Source: Candidatus Woesearchaeota archaeon (GTDB taxonomy: Archaea > Nanobdellota > Nanobdellia > Woesearchaeales > GW2011-AR9). Taken from it: 34,258 bases of DNA. Position 1 is the stretch's first letter, and the number at the start of each line of letters is the position of its first letter. The stretch spans positions 1 to 34,258 of the forward strand of contig JABHWJ010000006.1 in assembly GCA_018657845.1 (NCBI GenBank). The letters are read 5' to 3'. Under the pieces are notes generated by a model. It was not told the DNA's origin, did not search any database, and was given only the letters and a program-made list of their open reading frames with translations. Positions 7,018 through 32,655 of the stretch are shown here, in pieces. Both the position numbers and the translations under genes were made by a program.

Positions 7018-7788
7018 TTACTTAACTAAGCTCTTATAGAGATCTGTAGCTTTTCTTCCCACAAACCCTTTAGTGCTCCTCACTATGGTGGAAGCTTTCT
7101 TAACTAAGTCATCTACAATTCCAGCTCTATAAAAAGTATCTTTCAAAGAAAATAATGGGTCTTCTTCTCCGCAATAAGTTCTGTTTCTCCCTTCGGTCTT
7201 TGCCACTTGCATATATTTATCTGCTCTTGCTTGAGCGTTAGAATAATGTTCTGCTCGATCTAACCATTGAGTAACTCCAACAGAAACTGTAACTGTATGT
7301 CCAGTCAACTCCTTACTTCTAATCTCTACTTGTTTCCTAAGTCTTTCTGCAACATTCATTGCATCTTCTTGGCTTCTACAAGTATACAAAGCTAACATCT
7401 CTTCTCCATGTAAATGATATTCATTAGATAAGTTTAACACCAAGTCATTGTCTCTTAATGTTTCCCCTAATGCTTCAACAACAGCCATCAAAACTTTATC
7501 TCCTGTATCTGTACCATAAACTTTATTGAAATGTCCAAATTCATCAATGTCTACCATTGCCACATAAACTTGTTCAAAATCTTTATCTCCAATACCTAAT
7601 CGATTTTCTAGGCTCTTTAAATCTTCATCTCTCTGTCTCATGTTCGGAGCATCAGTAACATCATTCATCATAATTTGTTGATGAATTGATCCTAATCCTG
7701 CTAGAATGGCTTCCTTTCTATCTCCGCCACCTATTGCTTCTCCAATCAAGTCAACTAATTTATCATAAGTTTCTGAATCGTATGCCAT
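7018..7788 (-). CDS. GGDEF-like domain protein with degenerate signature (HGEEM)
   Basis: 256 aa; NDVTDAPNMRQRDEDL, AMVDIDEFGHFNKVYGTDTGDKVLMAVVEALGETLRDNDLVL, HGEEMLALYTC, VTVSVGVTQW, ARADKYMQVAKTEGRNRTY follow the diguanylate-cyclase fold pattern. Confidence 0.8.
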   Translation of the reverse strand: MAYDSETYDKLVDLIGEAIGGGDRKEAILAGLGSIHQQIMMNDVTDAPNMRQRDEDLKSLENRLGIGDKDFEQVYVAMVDIDEFGHFNKVYGTDTGDKVLMAVVEALGETLRDNDLVLNLSNEYHLHGEEMLALYTCRSQEDAMNVAERLRKQVEIRSKELTGHTVTVSVGVTQWLDRAEHYSNAQARADKYMQVAKTEGRNRTYCGEEDPLFSLKDTFYRAGIVDDLVKKASTIVRSTKGFVGRKATDLYKSLVK

Positions 7789-18095: not shown

Positions 18096-21000
18096 ATGAA
18101 AAAAAAGGTGTTAGATAAGAGTTCGTTAATTTTTATTATAGCAGTGGTTCTCTTAGCAGTTTTATCTTTTACCTTTTACGAACCACCAATTGGAGAAGCC
18201 GGCCGAATACCAATCTCTCGTCAAACAATTAATCACACTCAAAATATTTTTCTTCTTAAAGCTCCTGCCAGAAATTACATGGAACAAATATATCAACAAA
18301 ATGAAGCTACTAAATCTTATCAAAAAGCCAAAGAAGAAGAGGGGTATTGTGCCGAAGCAAAAGCACAAGCACAAAGTAGAACTTCTGGAAAAGGAAGAAA
18401 TCCCACAACAGAGATTTATTCTTATTGCCTAGATTTAGATGGAGTATTCAGTGGAGGAGAAGATTTTAAAATAGCTTCCAGTGCATATGCATATACAATC
18501 TTTCAAACCGGGTCTAGAAATCCCATTGAAGAATGTGTTGTCGAATATGATACCTGTAAAGAAGAGGGTCTTCCTTTTATGTATGAAGCCATTTGTTCAG
18601 GAAATAATTCTATTCAGTCTTCATTATTAAATTGCCAAGAGGTTTTTGGCCTAGATTATACTTGTGTTTCTGGAGCTTGTGTCCCCTCAGTATGTGGAGA
18701 TTCTAAATTTAATCCCACTAATGAAGAGTGTGACGACGGTAACAATGAGGAAGGAGATGGTTGTTCAGCAACTTGTCAATTAGAATATTGTGGAGATAAC
18801 AATGTTAACAACAACATTCCAGACTATCCAGAAGAACAGTGTGATAATGGCGAGAACAATGGGGTAATTCCCGAACAACAATATGGTGCAGATCAAGAAT
18901 ATTGCACAACAGAATGTATTCTAGAAGAAGTATCTGGTCCTCTTTGTGGAGATGGAATCATCCAAGAAGAAGAACAATGTGACGATGGCAGCCACTGTTC
19001 AGATGGAACCTCCTGCACTTCTTCAGAAGAATGTATGAATATTGGCGACTGGAATTGTTTGCCTAGAGATTTTGATGGTTGTTCATTTAATTGTAAATTA
19101 GAAGGTTGTGGCGACGGTTTACTTCAAATTGGAGAAGAATGTGACGATCTAAATCAAGAAGACTTTGATGGCTGTTCTTCAGGATGTAAGGTAGAATTCT
19201 GCGGAAATAATATCATTGACAGCATTGCTGAAGAATGTGATGATGGCAACAACGTTCCTTTAGATGGCTGTTCTTCAGAATGTTTACTTGAACTTCCCCC
19301 ACCAGATCTTTATGTTGGAGAAATATTTTCTCCAGTTCATAGCGCTTATTGTATTAACTCTTACCATTTTGAAATTTGTAACGCCGGAGAAGGATTTGTT
19401 GAAGAAGAATTCCAAATCAAAGTAGAAGTTAATGGTCAAGAATCCATCTTTGATTATGGGATGCAAGAAGGAATGGAAATTCAACCAGGAGGATGTTTGC
19501 ATTACTATAATCCCATCAAACTTCACATTCTAAAATTTGGTTTAGACTTAGAATCTACTGATGAAATCCATATAACTCTGGATGTAAATGATGACATCAA
19601 AGAACCCAACGAAGCAGACAATGAAAAATTGGGAGAATCCTATTCTGGAGACCAATATATTTATGAAGGGGATATTGAATGTACCACTTGGTGTTATGAT
19701 TCTGACGATGGAAAATCTTATTTTGATTCTGGAAAATTAACCTATCTCTATGAAGAGGTTGACCACCAAGTAGATGAATGTGATAGTGGAATGTATCCCA
19801 ATCAGGCCATTCTTACAGAATATTATTGTCTTAATCCTATTTATCAACTAGATAATGGCCTCTTTCCTTATCCTGCACTCTCCAAAAAAGTTGACTGCAC
19901 TATTCTAGATGCCAAATGCGTAGATGGAGAATGCGTTCCCATTGATGAAAACCACCTCAGTTGCAAAGATCTAGAAGGAAAGCTGGATATTTGGACCTAT
20001 GGAGAAGTAGATTACACTACTATTGATGGAGAAAATATTATTCTAAAAGACACTTGCCAAGATGAAGAACACATAAAAGAAGTTTATTGTGATTCTGATG
20101 AGCTTGCTGATGATTATACTCAAAATTGCGTTTACCAAAATGCTCTTTGTCAGGATGGAAAATGTGTTGAAGTAAACGAAACCAACTGGTGCGAAGATTT
20201 AGAGACAGGAGGAGAGTTTTCTCTTGGGGACCCCTACGTTTATGGAATTACCGAGTTTCACAAATTCACTGGAACTGTAGATATCAAAAAAGATAAGTGT
20301 TCTTTTGATCGGACCGAAGTTCGCCAATATTATTGCGAATTAGATTTTCCCGAATCTCAATGGTATGATTGCACCAACGATGAGAATGAACATGGGGCCG
20401 CATTATGTCACGATGGCATATGTGTCTTACCAGATCCAGATTATTTAAGTTGCGATGAATGGGGAGATGACGGTTTGGATTATTACAATCAAGGAACCGT
20501 AGAATCAAATAGTATCCATAATGTAGATGATTGGAATTCAGACGAATGTATTCCTATGACCAATCTTTTAATAGAGTATTACTGTGCAGGAAATGAATTT
20601 AAAATGACCCCTCCTTATAATTGTGGTTTAGAAGGAATGGCTTGCAATGAAGGAAAATGTGTTGCTGAAAATCCCAATCTAGTTTCTTGTGAAGAAACAG
20701 AATGGGACGAAATAGAATATGTTAATAAATTTGGAGAAGAAAACTGGGAAGGGGATGAGTGTGTAGCAGACGATGACTATGATGATTGGGAAACAGAAAG
20801 CAATACATTAAAACATTGGTTCTGCAATGAAAACACTCCAGATTACGAAACCATTGATTGTTCTGCAGAAGGAAAAGTATGTCATTATGGAGAATGCATC
20901 ACCAACGACCCCGCTCTAATCTCTTGTACAGAAGATTCAGAAAATAATAAAGTAAAATATACTAATGGATATGGCAATAAATACAGTGAAACTGACCAAT

Positions 21001-22127
21001 GCGTAGCAGACGACGATTTTGATGATTGGGAAAAAGAAAGCAACACCCTTCAACATTGGTTCTGCGATGAAAAGGTTCCAGATTATAAAATTACTACTTG
21101 CTCAGAAGGAAAATGTGTCTGGGGGGAATGTTTAATTGCTGATCTCGAATTAATTTTCTGCGAATTGGGAGACTTTGGCCAAATTCATTCTGCCGACGAG
21201 TATGGCTTAGAAAGTTGGAATTCTCCTCATTGTGTAGAAGATGATGATTATGATGATTGGGAAGAAGAAAGCAACACCCTCAAAAACTACATCTGTGATG
21301 GAAATAAACCAGTTAGTTCCATTGTTGATTGTTCTTTAGAAGGAAAGAAATGTTATGATGGAGAATGTTTATTGGAAGATTTTTCTCAAATTGCTTGTGT
21401 GGATTCAGAAGAAGATCCTCTCGATCCTTTTGTAAATGGTAATATCTTATACACAAATGAATTTGGCGTCAATTTTTTCTTTGATGATAATTGTGATTAT
21501 GGGACTATCTTAGAAGAAAGCTACTGTGACGGAAACGAACTCGAGGAAATAGACATTGATTGTGCAGATTTCGGAATGGGATGCAATACTAAAAAAGATA
21601 TCTGTCAAGAAGCTGATTATGATCTTTATGGTTGCCAAGAAACAGATAATGGAGATTTCCCAGAGATTCCTTCTTTTACCTCCCTAAATGATGAGTATGG
21701 CAACGGCGAATGGGCATATGAGTTTTGTGAAACAACAACAAAAGTGATGGAATTTTACTGCGAAGGAATTGATGATGTTGAAGAAGAATTTAATATTTGT
21801 GAAGAAGAAAAAGTTTGTAAAGGTCTTTGTAATCAAGAAGGAGAATATCTTGGTGCTGCTTGCGTAGATCCAGAAAATACAGAATATGTTGTTTGTGGAG
21901 ATTCGGATGAGACTGGATTAAAAGGTTTAGGTATTGAAGAGATAGAAGAAGAAGAACCAGAACCTGTCGAGGAAGAAGAAGCATGCGAATTAAATGAATG
22001 CCTCAACCAACAATATGCTGGTGGAGTTATCAGTTGTGGAATTATAAATGATAACTGTGGTGGAACTATTGATTGTGGTAGTTGCCCAGGAACCTCAACT
22101 TGTTCAGAGATGGGCATCTGTACATAA
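18096..22127 (+). CDS. 1343-aa secreted acidic cysteine-rich protein: N-terminal anchor, Myxo-disulf-type repeats, CARDB-like domain, about nine six-Cys modules, Cys-rich C-terminus
   Basis: SLIFIIAVVLLAVLSFTFY; CGDSKFNPTNEECDDGNNEEGDGCSATCQLEYCGD... repeats; PPDLYVGEIFSPVH...CARDB-like; repeated ECVADDDYDDWETESNTLKHWFCNENTPDYETIDCSAEGKVCHYGEC modules. Confidence 0.88.
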   Translation: MKKKVLDKSSLIFIIAVVLLAVLSFTFYEPPIGEAGRIPISRQTINHTQNIFLLKAPARNYMEQIYQQNEATKSYQKAKEEEGYCAEAKAQAQSRTSGKGRNPTTEIYSYCLDLDGVFSGGEDFKIASSAYAYTIFQTGSRNPIEECVVEYDTCKEEGLPFMYEAICSGNNSIQSSLLNCQEVFGLDYTCVSGACVPSVCGDSKFNPTNEECDDGNNEEGDGCSATCQLEYCGDNNVNNNIPDYPEEQCDNGENNGVIPEQQYGADQEYCTTECILEEVSGPLCGDGIIQEEEQCDDGSHCSDGTSCTSSEECMNIGDWNCLPRDFDGCSFNCKLEGCGDGLLQIGEECDDLNQEDFDGCSSGCKVEFCGNNIIDSIAEECDDGNNVPLDGCSSECLLELPPPDLYVGEIFSPVHSAYCINSYHFEICNAGEGFVEEEFQIKVEVNGQESIFDYGMQEGMEIQPGGCLHYYNPIKLHILKFGLDLESTDEIHITLDVNDDIKEPNEADNEKLGESYSGDQYIYEGDIECTTWCYDSDDGKSYFDSGKLTYLYEEVDHQVDECDSGMYPNQAILTEYYCLNPIYQLDNGLFPYPALSKKVDCTILDAKCVDGECVPIDENHLSCKDLEGKLDIWTYGEVDYTTIDGENIILKDTCQDEEHIKEVYCDSDELADDYTQNCVYQNALCQDGKCVEVNETNWCEDLETGGEFSLGDPYVYGITEFHKFTGTVDIKKDKCSFDRTEVRQYYCELDFPESQWYDCTNDENEHGAALCHDGICVLPDPDYLSCDEWGDDGLDYYNQGTVESNSIHNVDDWNSDECIPMTNLLIEYYCAGNEFKMTPPYNCGLEGMACNEGKCVAENPNLVSCEETEWDEIEYVNKFGEENWEGDECVADDDYDDWETESNTLKHWFCNENTPDYETIDCSAEGKVCHYGECITNDPALISCTEDSENNKVKYTNGYGNKYSETDQCVADDDFDDWEKESNTLQHWFCDEKVPDYKITTCSEGKCVWGECLIADLELIFCELGDFGQIHSADEYGLESWNSPHCVEDDDYDDWEEESNTLKNYICDGNKPVSSIVDCSLEGKKCYDGECLLEDFSQIACVDSEEDPLDPFVNGNILYTNEFGVNFFFDDNCDYGTILEESYCDGNELEEIDIDCADFGMGCNTKKDICQEADYDLYGCQETDNGDFPEIPSFTSLNDEYGNGEWAYEFCETTTKVMEFYCEGIDDVEEEFNICEEEKVCKGLCNQEGEYLGAACVDPENTEYVVCGDSDETGLKGLGIEEIEEEEPEPVEEEEACELNECLNQQYAGGVISCGIINDNCGGTIDCGSCPGTSTCSEMGICT
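20760..21315 (+). repeat. Three least-diverged tandem copies of the six-Cys acidic module
   Basis: Module landmark tgtgtagcagacgatgactatgatgattggga at 20760, 21000 and 21231 (periods 240 and 231 bp). Confidence 0.88.
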
Positions 22128-23075: not shown

Positions 23076-24224
23076 ATGTACCATATTAAAAAGAGGGTGA
23101 ACTTAGCCTTAGTTATACTTGTATTCATTACTCTAATTAATTCTGCAACTTCTCTTCCTGAAAATATTCCCCAAGGAGATTTTAATAATTTTGGGGCTGA
23201 CGGGAAACAGAACCTCGAAAAAATAAAGGACTTTGGTCCCTTAGTGCAGGAACAGGTTCAAGAACAACAATATCCTCAATGTCTTCTTGGATACATGTGC
23301 ACCGACGCAGATAACGATGGATACTGCAAAGAGAAAACTTGTCTTCCCAGTAAAACCATAAAATTTCCAGAAGAGGAATATTCAACAGGAAACACACTTT
23401 GTGTTGATTATGGCGGGTGTGCCTCTGCGAAAAAAACAACCACAATACCAATGAGGAATGAGGATGTTGAAACAGACATAATAGTTTCGTGTGGCTCAAC
23501 ACTTAAACCAACAACATCTTATCCTGCCATAATTTCATACACTGCCATTTGCAAAGATTCTCTGCCAGGAGGAGATTGTGATGACGTCAACGTCCAGATA
23601 AACTCCGAAGCAACAGAATCCTGTGACCAGATAGACAATAATTGTAATGGCTTTGTTGACGAAAGTCCTTCTTGTCTTCCAGCTGATTGCTCTACGAATG
23701 CAGAATTTACTTATTGTTCCTCAGAGGGAGGAGATAAGTACTGTATCTGGAGCTATAATCCCAAGTACCCAGGTAATCCTAGAAAAGGATGCTGCGCCGA
23801 AACTTCATGTGTTGATAGTGAAGGGAATTGTTACAGCCAATATGAAACTTTTGGCACTCAATGGATCTGCGAAAATGGAAACGACTGGGTTGAATGTAAA
23901 TCAGAAACAACAAATGGCCAACTAGGAGATTACACTTGCGACGGCACCTCCTGGACAGAAACTGGAGAACAATCAGCCAATGGGGAAGGGACCTTGGGAG
24001 ATGTAACTGGAGATACTTGCGTCACAATTGAAGACATCGCCATTCTTGCAGAAAGTATAGAAAAAAATTATGTTGAGGTATGTACTGCCGAGAATTCAGA
24101 TGAAAATTTAACCGCTTCTGATGGAGATGTAAATGAAGATGGTTGCGTCACAATTGAAGACATCGCCATTCTTGCAGAAAGTATAGAAAAAAATTATGTT
24201 GAAACATGCAACAAACAAAATTAA
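23076..24224 (+). CDS. Secreted protein with MopE-like metal-binding motifs and a C-terminal type I dockerin-like module
   Basis: Signal NLALVILVFITLINSATS; GGDCDDVNVQINSEATESCDQIDNNCNGFVDE; C-terminal GDVTGDTCVTIEDIAILAESIEKNYVEVC...DGDVNEDGCVTIEDIAILAESIEKNYVETC. Confidence 0.85.
   Translation: MYHIKKRVNLALVILVFITLINSATSLPENIPQGDFNNFGADGKQNLEKIKDFGPLVQEQVQEQQYPQCLLGYMCTDADNDGYCKEKTCLPSKTIKFPEEEYSTGNTLCVDYGGCASAKKTTTIPMRNEDVETDIIVSCGSTLKPTTSYPAIISYTAICKDSLPGGDCDDVNVQINSEATESCDQIDNNCNGFVDESPSCLPADCSTNAEFTYCSSEGGDKYCIWSYNPKYPGNPRKGCCAETSCVDSEGNCYSQYETFGTQWICENGNDWVECKSETTNGQLGDYTCDGTSWTETGEQSANGEGTLGDVTGDTCVTIEDIAILAESIEKNYVEVCTAENSDENLTASDGDVNEDGCVTIEDIAILAESIEKNYVETCNKQN
24017..24076 (+). 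repeat. 60-bp perfect direct repeat, copy 1 (first dockerin half)
   Basis: ttgcgtcacaattgaagacatcgccattcttgcagaaagtatagaaaaaaattatgttga; identical to 24143-24202, offset 126 bp (42 codons). Confidence 0.95.
24143..24202 (+). repeat. 60-bp perfect direct repeat, copy 2 (second dockerin half)
   Basis: Identical to 24017-24076. Confidence 0.95.
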
Positions 24225-27186: not shown

Positions 27187-29049
27187 ATGGAAAAAAGAGG
27201 AGATCAAAAGAATAATCAACAACCGCTTAAAGTAATAGATCATTCTCCTAAAAATTATCACAAACCTTTAATCATTTCTTTAGTTACTGTAATTATAATT
27301 ATTATTCTTGCTTTCCTCGCTCTTCTTTCTTCACAACAATTTGTTGGAGAAGCGTTTAAAGTAGTAATTCCCTTAGAAACTGCAGCATCCAAACAAATAG
27401 CCCTTGATCCAATAACTGCAGAAGCGGATGCTGGAGATCCTTTTACGGTAACAGTTAAAGCCCATCTTGAAGGAGATGGACCAACTAAAAAGAATCTCCA
27501 AAAATTCCTTAATTATGAAGTAACTTTATCTTACAACACCTTTTTAACTTATAATTCTGGACAAAATCTTCTTCCTGGATTTTCTGGGTCATGCATAGAT
27601 GATAATGGAGTAATCACTTGCAGCTTCCTTACCGACGACCCCAATAAAGCTTACAAATCTCAATCAACCCCTTTACTCAAATTATCATTTACAACTAAAG
27701 ATGCTGGCGCAGTAGATTCCAGCGATGCAACCATTTCCATAAATTCTTTTAATGTCCAATATGATGGCTCCTATGGTCTCAGTGTATTTGACCCAGCCCT
27801 CTTTGGTTCCTCTACAATAACTATTGCTTGTACCAAACAAAATTTCTATCAAGACAAGGATGGCGACACTTTTTTTGGAACTCCCACAAACATTTGCGTA
27901 CATAAGGCTCAACCAGGAATCGATTCCGCTGTAAAAGATGATTGTAATGACCAAGATCCATTCCATTGGGTAACTAAAGATTATTACAAAGATGATGATC
28001 AAGATACTTTCTATACTATCGCACAAAGTAACGTTTGTGCACCTTCAGACCCCGCATACTTGGAAGGAAAAGAAGATCAGGATTGTAATGACAACAATCT
28101 TTTAATCAATCCCACTGCAGAAGAGGTTTGTGATGGCGTAGATAATAATTGTAACCAACAAACTGATGAAAATCCCAACAATGACATTTGTGATCAAGGT
28201 TGGAAATGTGGAACCTGTAACCCTCAAGCAGGACACACTTGTTCTGATGAAGATAACCTAGGAACAAAACAATGTTATGCCGAATGTGCAGAACAATGTA
28301 CCAAAGGAGGAGACCAAGAATGTGGTTTCCATTATGTTTGTGATAATCATGTCCTTCTAGAATGTAATAAAGAAGGAAACGAAATTCTTGACGGAGAAGG
28401 AAGATGCGATTCTCTTTACAAAGATGAAGGAAAAGTTTGCAATTACGAAACCGGAAAATGTGTTCTTCCAGATGAAGTCTGTGGCCCAGGTTCTAATGAA
28501 TGTACAGAATTACTCCAAGAATCCTCTCCAAGTTGTGGAGATGGTATCTCCCAAGATTATGAAAACTGTATGACTTGTGAAACTGACGTCGGCGCTTGTG
28601 AAGGAGGAGATGTAGCAGATCCTGCTGATGATTCAGATCCTAATTTAGATACTGATAACGACGGCATCCCAGATACAATCGATCCAGATAATGATAACGA
28701 CGGCATCCCAGATTCAGAAGAAATTTGTTTAGATGGTCAAGGAAACAATATTTGTGATCAAGACGGCGACGGCATCCCTGATTATAGTGAATTAGACTCT
28801 GACGGCGACGGCATCAATGATAATATGGATTACTGTCCCGGAACTGATACTCAAGATGGAACTTTTGTCTTCCCCACTTACATTAACTTAAATGGTTGTT
28901 ACATCGGTGATTTCGCTCACTTAGTCGGACAATTAAGCACTCCTGGACCAGATGGTTGTTTTGACAACATAGATTATATGCTCTTAGTAACTCCATACAA
29001 ATTCTGGGATGATGTAGGACTTCCAAGTTGTCCATCTAAACTAGAATAA
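27187..29049 (+). CDS. Signal-anchored protein combining cohesin-like, MopE-like, TSP3 and C-terminal half-dockerin-like modules
   Basis: TM PLIISLVTVIIIIILAFLALL; QIALDPITAEADAGDPFTVTVKAHLEG...LNYEVTLSYNTFLTY; DCNDNNLLINPTAEEVCDGVDNNCNQQTDE; DTDNDGIPDTIDPDNDNDGIPDSEE; C-terminal GPDGCFDNIDYMLLVTPYKFW. Confidence 0.75.
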   Translation: MEKRGDQKNNQQPLKVIDHSPKNYHKPLIISLVTVIIIIILAFLALLSSQQFVGEAFKVVIPLETAASKQIALDPITAEADAGDPFTVTVKAHLEGDGPTKKNLQKFLNYEVTLSYNTFLTYNSGQNLLPGFSGSCIDDNGVITCSFLTDDPNKAYKSQSTPLLKLSFTTKDAGAVDSSDATISINSFNVQYDGSYGLSVFDPALFGSSTITIACTKQNFYQDKDGDTFFGTPTNICVHKAQPGIDSAVKDDCNDQDPFHWVTKDYYKDDDQDTFYTIAQSNVCAPSDPAYLEGKEDQDCNDNNLLINPTAEEVCDGVDNNCNQQTDENPNNDICDQGWKCGTCNPQAGHTCSDEDNLGTKQCYAECAEQCTKGGDQECGFHYVCDNHVLLECNKEGNEILDGEGRCDSLYKDEGKVCNYETGKCVLPDEVCGPGSNECTELLQESSPSCGDGISQDYENCMTCETDVGACEGGDVADPADDSDPNLDTDNDGIPDTIDPDNDNDGIPDSEEICLDGQGNNICDQDGDGIPDYSELDSDGDGINDNMDYCPGTDTQDGTFVFPTYINLNGCYIGDFAHLVGQLSTPGPDGCFDNIDYMLLVTPYKFWDDVGLPSCPSKLE

Positions 29050-30345: not shown

Positions 30346-30996
30346 ATGGAACCACAACCACACTCAAAGATTCTAACTATTATGTTTATTGACCTAGTAG
30401 GATACACTTCTAAGATTCAACAGTCTACCCGACAACAATTAAACGATCTCCAAGATAACTTTGACAATCTCACCCATCCTATTTTCAAAAAACATTCCGG
30501 AAATATCATAAAAAAAATTGGTGATGCATTTCTTATCACTTTTCATTCTCCCACCGACGCCCTTCTCTGCGCAATCGACCTCCAAAAAGAATTCCAAGAA
30601 CACAACAAAAATAATCAAAATCCTCTTCACATTCGTGTCGCTCTTCACGCGGGAGAAGTTCTCCTAAAAGATAAGGATGTTTATGGAGATTCAGTCAACA
30701 TCACTTCCCGAGTAGAATCCATTACTCCTCCAGATCAAATTTACTTCACCGAATCCGTTCAACAACACATGAACAAAAACGAAATCCCCCATTTAGATTT
30801 AGGCCATACTTATCTAAAAGGAATCGAACAACCAGTCAGAATCTTCAAAGTAAAATCAAAACACGACCAAAATAAAAAAATAATCTCCAAGATCATGGAA
30901 TACATTCTTTTAACCATCGCCGTCGCAGTAATTATTTTAGTATTCTATTTCATCCTCAACAAATATAATTTATTAGAAAAATTATTTCTAAACTAA
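30346..30996 (+). CDS. Class III adenylate/guanylate cyclase with C-terminal TM anchor
   Basis: 216 aa; MFIDLVGYTSKIQ, GNIIKKIGDAFLITF, VYGDSVNITSRVE; C-terminal TM YILLTIAVAVIILVFYFIL. TATA-like tttataaatt about 30 nt upstream. Confidence 0.9.
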   Translation: MEPQPHSKILTIMFIDLVGYTSKIQQSTRQQLNDLQDNFDNLTHPIFKKHSGNIIKKIGDAFLITFHSPTDALLCAIDLQKEFQEHNKNNQNPLHIRVALHAGEVLLKDKDVYGDSVNITSRVESITPPDQIYFTESVQQHMNKNEIPHLDLGHTYLKGIEQPVRIFKVKSKHDQNKKIISKIMEYILLTIAVAVIILVFYFILNKYNLLEKLFLN

Positions 30997-31004
30997 AATA
31001 ATTC

Positions 31005-31271
31005 TCAAAACACCAAATCAGAATGTTTCATAAAAAAAGTAATTTTATCATTCCTCTCTAATTGTTTAATTTGATATTCAATCTTAGCAGCCTCACTTTT
31101 ATCAGCAACCGAGATCGCATGCAAGATCTGTTTAAATCTTTTCGCCCGAACATATTTACTTCCCTTACCTTCTTTATGGGCCAACATCCGTTTCTCCAAA
31201 TCATTAGTGATCCCAGTATACAAAGAATCGTCACGACATTCTAAAATATAAACAAACCAGGAATCAACCAT
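31005..31271 (-). CDS. Standalone GIY-YIG endonuclease-like protein
   Basis: Start revised to ATG 31271 (MVDSWFVYILECRDDSLYTGITNDLEKRMLAHKEGKGSKYVRAKR...); tataaact-type TATA about 25 nt upstream supports it over the 138-aa ORF-track version. Confidence 0.88.
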   Translation of the reverse strand: MVDSWFVYILECRDDSLYTGITNDLEKRMLAHKEGKGSKYVRAKRFKQILHAISVADKSEAAKIEYQIKQLERNDKITFFMKHSDLVF

Positions 31272-31319
31272 AAAGAAAATAAAAATCGAAAGTTTATATT
31301 TCTTTCTTAATTGGGGTCT

Positions 31320-31440
31320 TGTCCAGAATAATATCTTTTGTATACTGGCGCCCTGACGAAGTCGAGGCGCATTTTTGTGATATTTTGAACAAAAATCTAC
31401 GCGCCGTGCCCTAGTATACAAATATTTTCCATTTTGGACA
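31320..31440. repeat. Nested palindromic element, possibly MITE/REP-like
   Basis: Outer TGTCCA (31320-31325) / TGGACA (31435-31440); TTTGTATACT (31337-31346) / AGTATACAAA (31413-31422); inner hairpin GCGCCCTGAC-GAA-GTCGAGGCGC (31348-31370); ATTTTTGT (31371-31378) / ACAAAAAT (31389-31396). Confidence 0.7.
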
Positions 31441-31449
31441 GATTACTTC

Positions 31450-32655
31450 TCAAAGTACAAAATACAAAATAACTGGCAGTATTAAACAACCCATCAAATG
31501 ATTCTTCCCTATCTTCCACGAAGAAGCCACCAATCCCACTGCAGTTGCCGTAATCAAAACCAGCAATCCAATAAACCCATCAAAATAAAACGTCAACAAA
31601 GTAATAAATCCCAAAATTCCAAAAATAAGGTAATTATAATTAACTTTTACAATTAATCTAGAAAAAACTTTTGATAGTTCAATTGCCAACAACGCCGCTC
31701 CCCCTCCGACAATTAAAGCCACTCCTAAAAACAAAATCATTTCTTTAAAACCAACCCCACCTAATAATTTATTTACTGTCAATATCGCTCCATTCCGAGC
31801 TTTATTCAATACAAAAGCAGTAGCAATTGAAATTAACATATTCGCAGTGTTAATTCCCCCAACTAAAGATAAAAATCCTTCATCACCCACATCACCAACA
31901 ATATTCGTCGCTACAATCGCCGCCTGCGACGAACCAAAGCCCGGCAAAAACGCCGCAATAAATCCAACCCCCGTCGCCGCAGATACTGATTTCATAATAT
32001 TCTTCTTAGAAATTGTCAACGGCTTACTCAAATCTTGTTTTGGAATTTTAGACTTTTGCATCAAACTAACTAATAAAATAGAAAACCCAAACAACCCACT
32101 AAGTAAAGGAAACAACGGCTGCTTCAATCCATGAATATTAAATACAATCAATCCTAAACATCCCGCCACCATAAACAACACTAAACTCTTCAACCTTTTT
32201 CCTTTATCTTTCCCAATCATAAATATCATGATTACTGCCAAGATATATCCAATCACCCCTTTAACAAGAGGATAAATCCATTCCATTCCTATAATAAACA
32301 AAGGAAACAATAACATTGCTAATATTAAACAACCTAAAGAACCAATCACAGTATAAACAACTGCATTGTGTCCTTCTCCTTTATGCAACAACCTATGTCC
32401 AGGAAGAACATTCAGTTCCTGTCCCGCATCTGGCGCCCCCAAATAAATACTTGGCAGAGAATCTAAAAAAGTATGCGTCAAAGCCAAACTAATAATAAAA
32501 ACACCTAATGCAATCGGAGAAACCCATCCTAACAAAACCCCAGATAAACTCAATACTAATAAAGAAATTAAATTCACATGAATCCCGGGGATTAAGCCGG
32601 TTACAATTCCAGCCCCCATCCCAAACACCAATGCCAAAATAATTTCTAAGAACAT
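31450..32655 (-). CDS. TctA-like / DUF112 family membrane transporter
   Basis: 401 aa polytopic; GMGAGIVTGLIPGIHVNLISLL, LDSLPSIYLGAPDAGQELNVLPGHRLLHKGEGHNAV, GFIAAFLPGFGSSQAAIVA. Confidence 0.8.
   Translation of the reverse strand: MFLEIILALVFGMGAGIVTGLIPGIHVNLISLLVLSLSGVLLGWVSPIALGVFIISLALTHTFLDSLPSIYLGAPDAGQELNVLPGHRLLHKGEGHNAVVYTVIGSLGCLILAMLLFPLFIIGMEWIYPLVKGVIGYILAVIMIFMIGKDKGKRLKSLVLFMVAGCLGLIVFNIHGLKQPLFPLLSGLFGFSILLVSLMQKSKIPKQDLSKPLTISKKNIMKSVSAATGVGFIAAFLPGFGSSQAAIVATNIVGDVGDEGFLSLVGGINTANMLISIATAFVLNKARNGAILTVNKLLGGVGFKEMILFLGVALIVGGGAALLAIELSKVFSRLIVKVNYNYLIFGILGFITLLTFYFDGFIGLLVLITATAVGLVASSWKIGKNHLMGCLILPVILYFVL

Follow-up and report, generated by a model that had tools for sequence, protein, structure and literature searches.

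A palindrome beside a GIY-YIG gene in a woesearchaeal genome as the probable fossil of an IS5-type MITE with a conserved folded core

Short palindromes that are dispersed between prokaryotic genes fall into a few described classes. REPs are single hairpins of 20-40 bp linked to TnpA-REP (HUH) transposases and, to our knowledge, they do not come with target duplications of 8-9 bp. Prokaryotic MITEs derive from insertion sequences, lie between genes and form stable stem-loops, with archaeal examples in Sulfolobus, Halobacterium, Haloquadratum and others (2024 review, PMC10969869). IStrons combine a group I intron with an insertion sequence (PMC4227781). The term DPANN does not occur in the 2024 review, and in the literature that we searched, which covered few subscription journals, we found nothing on MITEs of these ultra-small archaea and no description of the element reported here. 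This element is a palindrome next to a GIY-YIG gene in a stretch of 34,258 nucleotides from a Candidatus Woesearchaeota archaeon, called the window below. We read it as a fossil non-autonomous DNA transposon whose core has been kept for its fold, with the GIY-YIG gene as a bystander, and we give this explanation as a whole a probability of roughly 0.92.

The nested inverted repeats that the original prediction described upstream of the gene are all present in the sequence: TGTCCA at 31320 pairs with TGGACA ending at 31440, a span of 121 bp, and the inner pair TTTGTATACT/AGTATACAAA joins 31337-31346 with 31413-31422. Its limits of 31320-31440 for a 121-bp element had to be revised, as aligning the arms with each other, with copies in two related genomes (G120 and G041) and with the ends of insertion sequences places the likely ends at 31315 and 31444, about 130 bp apart. 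Folded as single-stranded DNA, the element reaches -25.7 kcal/mol, against -10.0 +/- 2.5 for dinucleotide shuffles (z -6.3; 0/200). The core runs in the order P1, GCGCC, small hairpin, GAGG, P3, P4, a 4-nt bulge, CCGTGCCC and P1'. The features of the locus are as follows.

31008-31271, minus strand: UPF0213-like standalone GIY-YIG gene of 88 aa, a neighbour outside the element.
31292-31301, minus strand: TATA-like AAATATAAAC, between the GIY-YIG ATG and the element.
31315-31444, plus strand: the whole element, read as a degenerate MITE; left end GGTCTTGTCCAGAATAA..., right end read inward AATCTGTCCAAAATGG...
31315-31348, plus strand: left arm, an IS5-type terminal repeat and the TTTGTATACTGG stem arm, from the alignment of arms and insertion sequence ends.
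31336-31422, plus strand: conserved folded core, 80.1 bits with covariance model R1.
31352-31367, plus strand: small hairpin CCTGACGAAGTCGAGG, between P1 and P3.
31371-31398, plus strand: hairpin P4 (ATTTTTGT...ACAAAAAT), whose apex differs between copies.
31410-31444, minus strand: right arm, an IS5-type terminal repeat and stem arm (CCTAGTATACAAA...TGGACAGATT), from the alignment of the arms.

No transposase gene lies inside the element of about 130 bp, and the sole listed open reading frame that reaches into it is the TTG-start extension of its neighbour. We discarded this TTG start, at 31421, as an open reading frame artefact inside the palindrome; the GIY-YIG gene likely starts at the ATG at 31271 (MVDSWFVYILEC...), 43 bp from the element. 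Its product carries a GIY-YIG domain (PF01541, 60 bits, E 2.7e-16), and its closest solved relatives are UPF0213 structures (PDB 1zg2, 3e-14; 1ywl, 1e-10). The spacing typical of archaeal promoters is the basis for reading AAATATAAAC as the promoter of this gene. Since it lies between gene and element, the GIY-YIG transcript would be leaderless and free of the palindrome. Twelve nucleotides of the catalytic-motif codons (31213-31224) recur exactly, in inverted orientation, in the stem arm (31337-31348). Elsewhere, the window encodes NOG1, a class I LysRS and SepF, which, together with an assembly size of 863 kb, give the host the look of a DPANN archaeon. It also encodes a GGDEF domain protein (7018-7788, minus strand) and a protein with a class III adenylate/guanylate cyclase domain (30346-30996, plus strand); cyclic nucleotide signalling in a DPANN archaeon would be unusual. 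Three plus-strand genes (18096-22127, 23076-24224 and 27187-29049) encode proteins that may be secreted to the surface, including one of 1343 aa with DUF4215 and others with MopE-type metal-binding and dockerin-like motifs.

About 200 copies of a folded element, spread over Woesearchaeota-type archaea, were detected, and the palindrome is one of them. Covariance model R1, built from sixteen cores aligned with MAFFT, matches 204 times in 18 of the 49 genomes of the archaeal family, with a maximum of 32 per genome; several copies lie at contig ends, so that these counts are probably low. A search for further copies in the genome itself had been proposed from the outset, and its outcome depends on the method: by nucleotide search there is no other full copy, a misleading result because the copies have diverged, and the covariance model recovers six more, diverged ones, seven in all. 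Those designated C8, C42, C24 and C31 are without clear IS5-type ends. Across 371 genomes of the phylum, a nucleotide search returned partial matches, the strongest mostly from the same family, which on inspection share the architecture and differ in their outer stems; among the candidates listed from this sample, nearly every carrier belongs to the family, and four further genomes are from its order. Most copies lie between genes, with a tendency to be on the upstream side of the flanking genes (101:59). An apparent bias in orientation toward the downstream gene, 26:9 in the first 43 copies, was given up when 100 held-out copies gave 46:33 (p=0.18). Pattern-scan matches in public genomes were, among those listed, mostly chance hits in GC-rich genomes, with L076, L081 and L122 as the true ones. 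Viral scans yielded no true core: the first scan gave GC-rich sequences with poor pairing, matches to the arms came without the core, and a scan with the IS66-type core gave no matches.

The identification of the palindrome as a degenerate IS5-type MITE is well supported. Perfect target duplications of 8-9 bp are found immediately outside the inverted ends of 57 of 154 copies read with their flanks, against 0-1 when left and right flanks from different genomes are paired. Near-identical copies within one genome have differing duplications, as seen in G041, G120, G011 and G039; four such copies in G041 are flanked by AAGAAAGAG, ACGACAACC, CCTTGTTTC and GGGTCTCTT. Across copies, the element measures 120-180 bp, and its ends, GGCTCTGTCCAGAATAAC.../...GTATACTGG, match those of complete IS5-family insertion sequences in related genomes, which we reached through a search for DDE_Tnp_1. 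Three of these, L264 (934 bp, G041), L260 (990 bp, G003) and L259 (994 bp, G039), each have a target duplication of their own and the same ends as the MITEs; the end of L260, GGCTCCGTAGAATTGC, equals that of the MITE copies C11, C15 and C21 of its genome. Their transposases all match the NCBIfam IS5 model NF033579, those of L259 and L260 above the cut-off. A further one, L289, measures 954 bp and lies in an 8-bp duplication; its ends, GGCTCTGTCCAGAATAACA... and GGCTTTGTCCAGAAAAGAATAAAAAGGTATACTGG..., are similar to the left and the right MITE arm, the GTATACTGG stem arm included. Two loci with an L264-like transposase, L285 and L286, had no recoverable ends. A separate observation concerns L264 (G041:C8): inward from its end at 2309, a perfect 14-bp hairpin, AGTGTATACTGAAT...ATTCAGTATACACT, encloses the start codon of the transposase in its loop. 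The arm of this hairpin is similar to the stem arm of the MITEs, and the hairpin may provide a self-limiting control of translation.

The copy in the window has aged. Its left arm is identical at 35 of 40 positions to a G120 copy that bears a clean 8-bp target duplication; the window copy itself has no recognisable duplication, and its right end deviates from GG. PF01609 (DDE_Tnp_1) has no match in its own genome, an assembly of 863 kb that is 89% complete, so the copy is best read as a fossil whose past mobility we infer from the relatives. The location of the palindrome between two minus-strand genes, just after the end of TctA at 31450, would also suit an ordinary terminator or regulatory hairpin of TctA or of the GIY-YIG gene, but the dispersed copies, the target duplications and the transposon ends make such a role very improbable.

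The original prediction raised the hypothesis that the GIY-YIG protein acts on the palindrome or mobilises it; the two would then form a homing-type or REP-type pair. Gene and element are adjacent, with 43 bp between them, and they have the 12-nt exact TTTGTATACTGG in common, in the element arm and in the SLYTG codons of the nuclease. However, an intergenic copy is bound to have some gene next to it, so that adjacency calls for no special cause; the 12-mer in common coincides with conserved codons and is taken as chance, and the arm sequence is explained by the IS5 ends, being present also in genomes without the gene. Close GIY-YIG homologues occur in nine of the 49 family genomes and the element in 18, with both in five (Fisher p=0.26), and 13 element-bearing genomes have no close homologue. 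No other GIY-YIG homologue adjoins the element, the nearest copy on the same contig being 40 kb off (G014), and wherever else a genome has both, other genes flank the GIY-YIG gene. Copies of the element therefore occur independently of GIY-YIG genes, which the prediction itself had named as its refutation, and it is a DDE transposase that has matching ends in the relatives. That the nuclease recognises or moves the palindrome thus seems to us hardly credible.

In other copies, the same core lies between ends of a second kind. Some core copies (G001, G002, G038 and G044) have ends GTACGTATTWAG with 8-bp duplications. A pattern search located an element with ends of this form in G039 (C12:1478-2876), without a visible target duplication; its 437-aa transposase scores above the cut-off of the IS66 model NF033517. 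The window element matches an IS66-type copy in G038 by plain BLAST (E 1.5e-6), so the resemblance of their cores reflects homology and is not produced by the covariance model. What is new here is that a single conserved folded core occurs within the ends of either of two unrelated transposon families. On a related matter, G044 has several inverted GTACGTATTTAGTT end pairs, 100-340 bp apart (C1, C2, C3, C4 and C5), so that IS66-type MITEs are abundant in this one genome, with the core recognised in only part of the pairs.

Within the core, GCC, GAGG, the A that follows it and CCGTGC are nearly invariant in 107 aligned copies, and the bulge between P4 and P3 is kept, mostly at 4-5 nt. The stems hold 527 double-changed cells against 184 +/- 12 in shuffles, a figure to be read knowing that template switching can homogenise the arms of a DNA palindrome and mimic covariation. 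Stem P3 is paired in 100% of the cells, with one position split between GC (55) and AU (46). The position of the small hairpin reads AAnnGAGG in most copies of the core alignment, and the variants of its stem are compensatory (GAC/GTC, GTC/GAC and GGC/GCC). The alignment of 107 copies was fitted to the structure, and the MAFFT alignment of 16 shows the same picture. That the bulge, mismatch and junction bases are conserved would point to selection acting on the fold too. We considered a K-turn-like tandem GA motif at the apex of P4 and dropped it, as only 25 of 72 distinct hairpins have it. Cores also nest: in G011 and G014, one core lies inverted inside the P4 loop of another, and nested cores are retained in dispersed copies with differing target duplications (L051, L052, L057 and other copies of these two genomes).

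What the fold might be for can be approached in several ways. The core could be maintained as folded single-stranded DNA that the element needs for transposition or replication. Its occurrence between two types of transposon end is consistent with this, and the nested copies, which meet at hairpin tips, point to template switching while the DNA was folded; however, the core is absent from the complete IS5-type elements L259, L260 and L264 and is thus not needed for IS5 transposition itself, which leaves this reading rather doubtful. Alternatively, MITEs could carry the core as a functional RNA, for instance processed or spliced out of transcripts so that insertions are less harmful, in a role comparable to that of the group I intron of IStrons. 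Unpaired bases that hardly vary are framed by covarying stems, copies with different transposon ends retain the fold, and P3 lies between opposite-strand bulges, loosely like the archaeal bulge-helix-bulge. Yet the mostly intergenic placement of the copies, tending upstream of genes, the orientation bias that vanished in the hold-out sample and the results from Rfam, with only tRNAs in the window and only weak matches, far below gathering scores, at nine loci with copies, make us consider an RNA role unlikely. More broadly, and still tentatively, the core may be an undescribed functional RNA or single-stranded DNA module of Woesearchaeota-type archaea, captured by IS5 and IS66 MITEs, able to nest within itself, and aiding the mobility of its carrier or its tolerance by the host.

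The history that we propose for the fossil transposon is then the following. An IS5-family DDE transposase would have bound the ends in trans and moved an element of 120-180 bp, leaving a target duplication. The window copy would now be immobile, as no DDE_Tnp_1 transposase is detectable in its genome. The conserved core travels between IS5-type ends and also between IS66-type ends, and it may have persisted because the folded form, be it single-stranded DNA or RNA, is of importance to the element or to the host. The GIY-YIG gene, with a likely promoter of its own, would be there by chance. In place of the proposed pair of nuclease and palindrome there is thus a bystander and, next to it, the relic of a transposon; what remains is a conserved folded module shared by MITEs whose ends belong to two unrelated transposase families. 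A functional fold would show how non-autonomous elements swap ends while keeping a structured passenger. Model R1 can be used directly to follow the element family through these genomes.

Set against known systems, the locus differs from a homing-type GIY-YIG nuclease and its target in that nuclease and site do not occur jointly. With the REP/TnpA-REP (RAYT) system it shares a palindromic, dispersed and intergenic nature, but the family is longer, bears terminal inverted repeats and target duplications, and has ends that match DDE and not HUH transposases; with 120-180 bp and duplications of 8-9 bp, the label of REP-like does not hold. IStrons likewise have a structured module riding in an insertion sequence, whereas here there is no group I intron and no Rfam family was matched. 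Derivatives of the IS66 family are similar in that some core copies have GTACGTATTWAG ends and 8-bp duplications, while the ends of the window copy are of IS5 type. The closest systems are the IS5-derived MITEs, which are also short, non-coding, intergenic and multicopy, with inverted ends matching IS5 and duplications of 8-9 bp, and the description as a miniature mobile element was in this respect correct. What sets the present family apart from them is a strongly conserved, covarying folded core that is also found between IS66-type ends.
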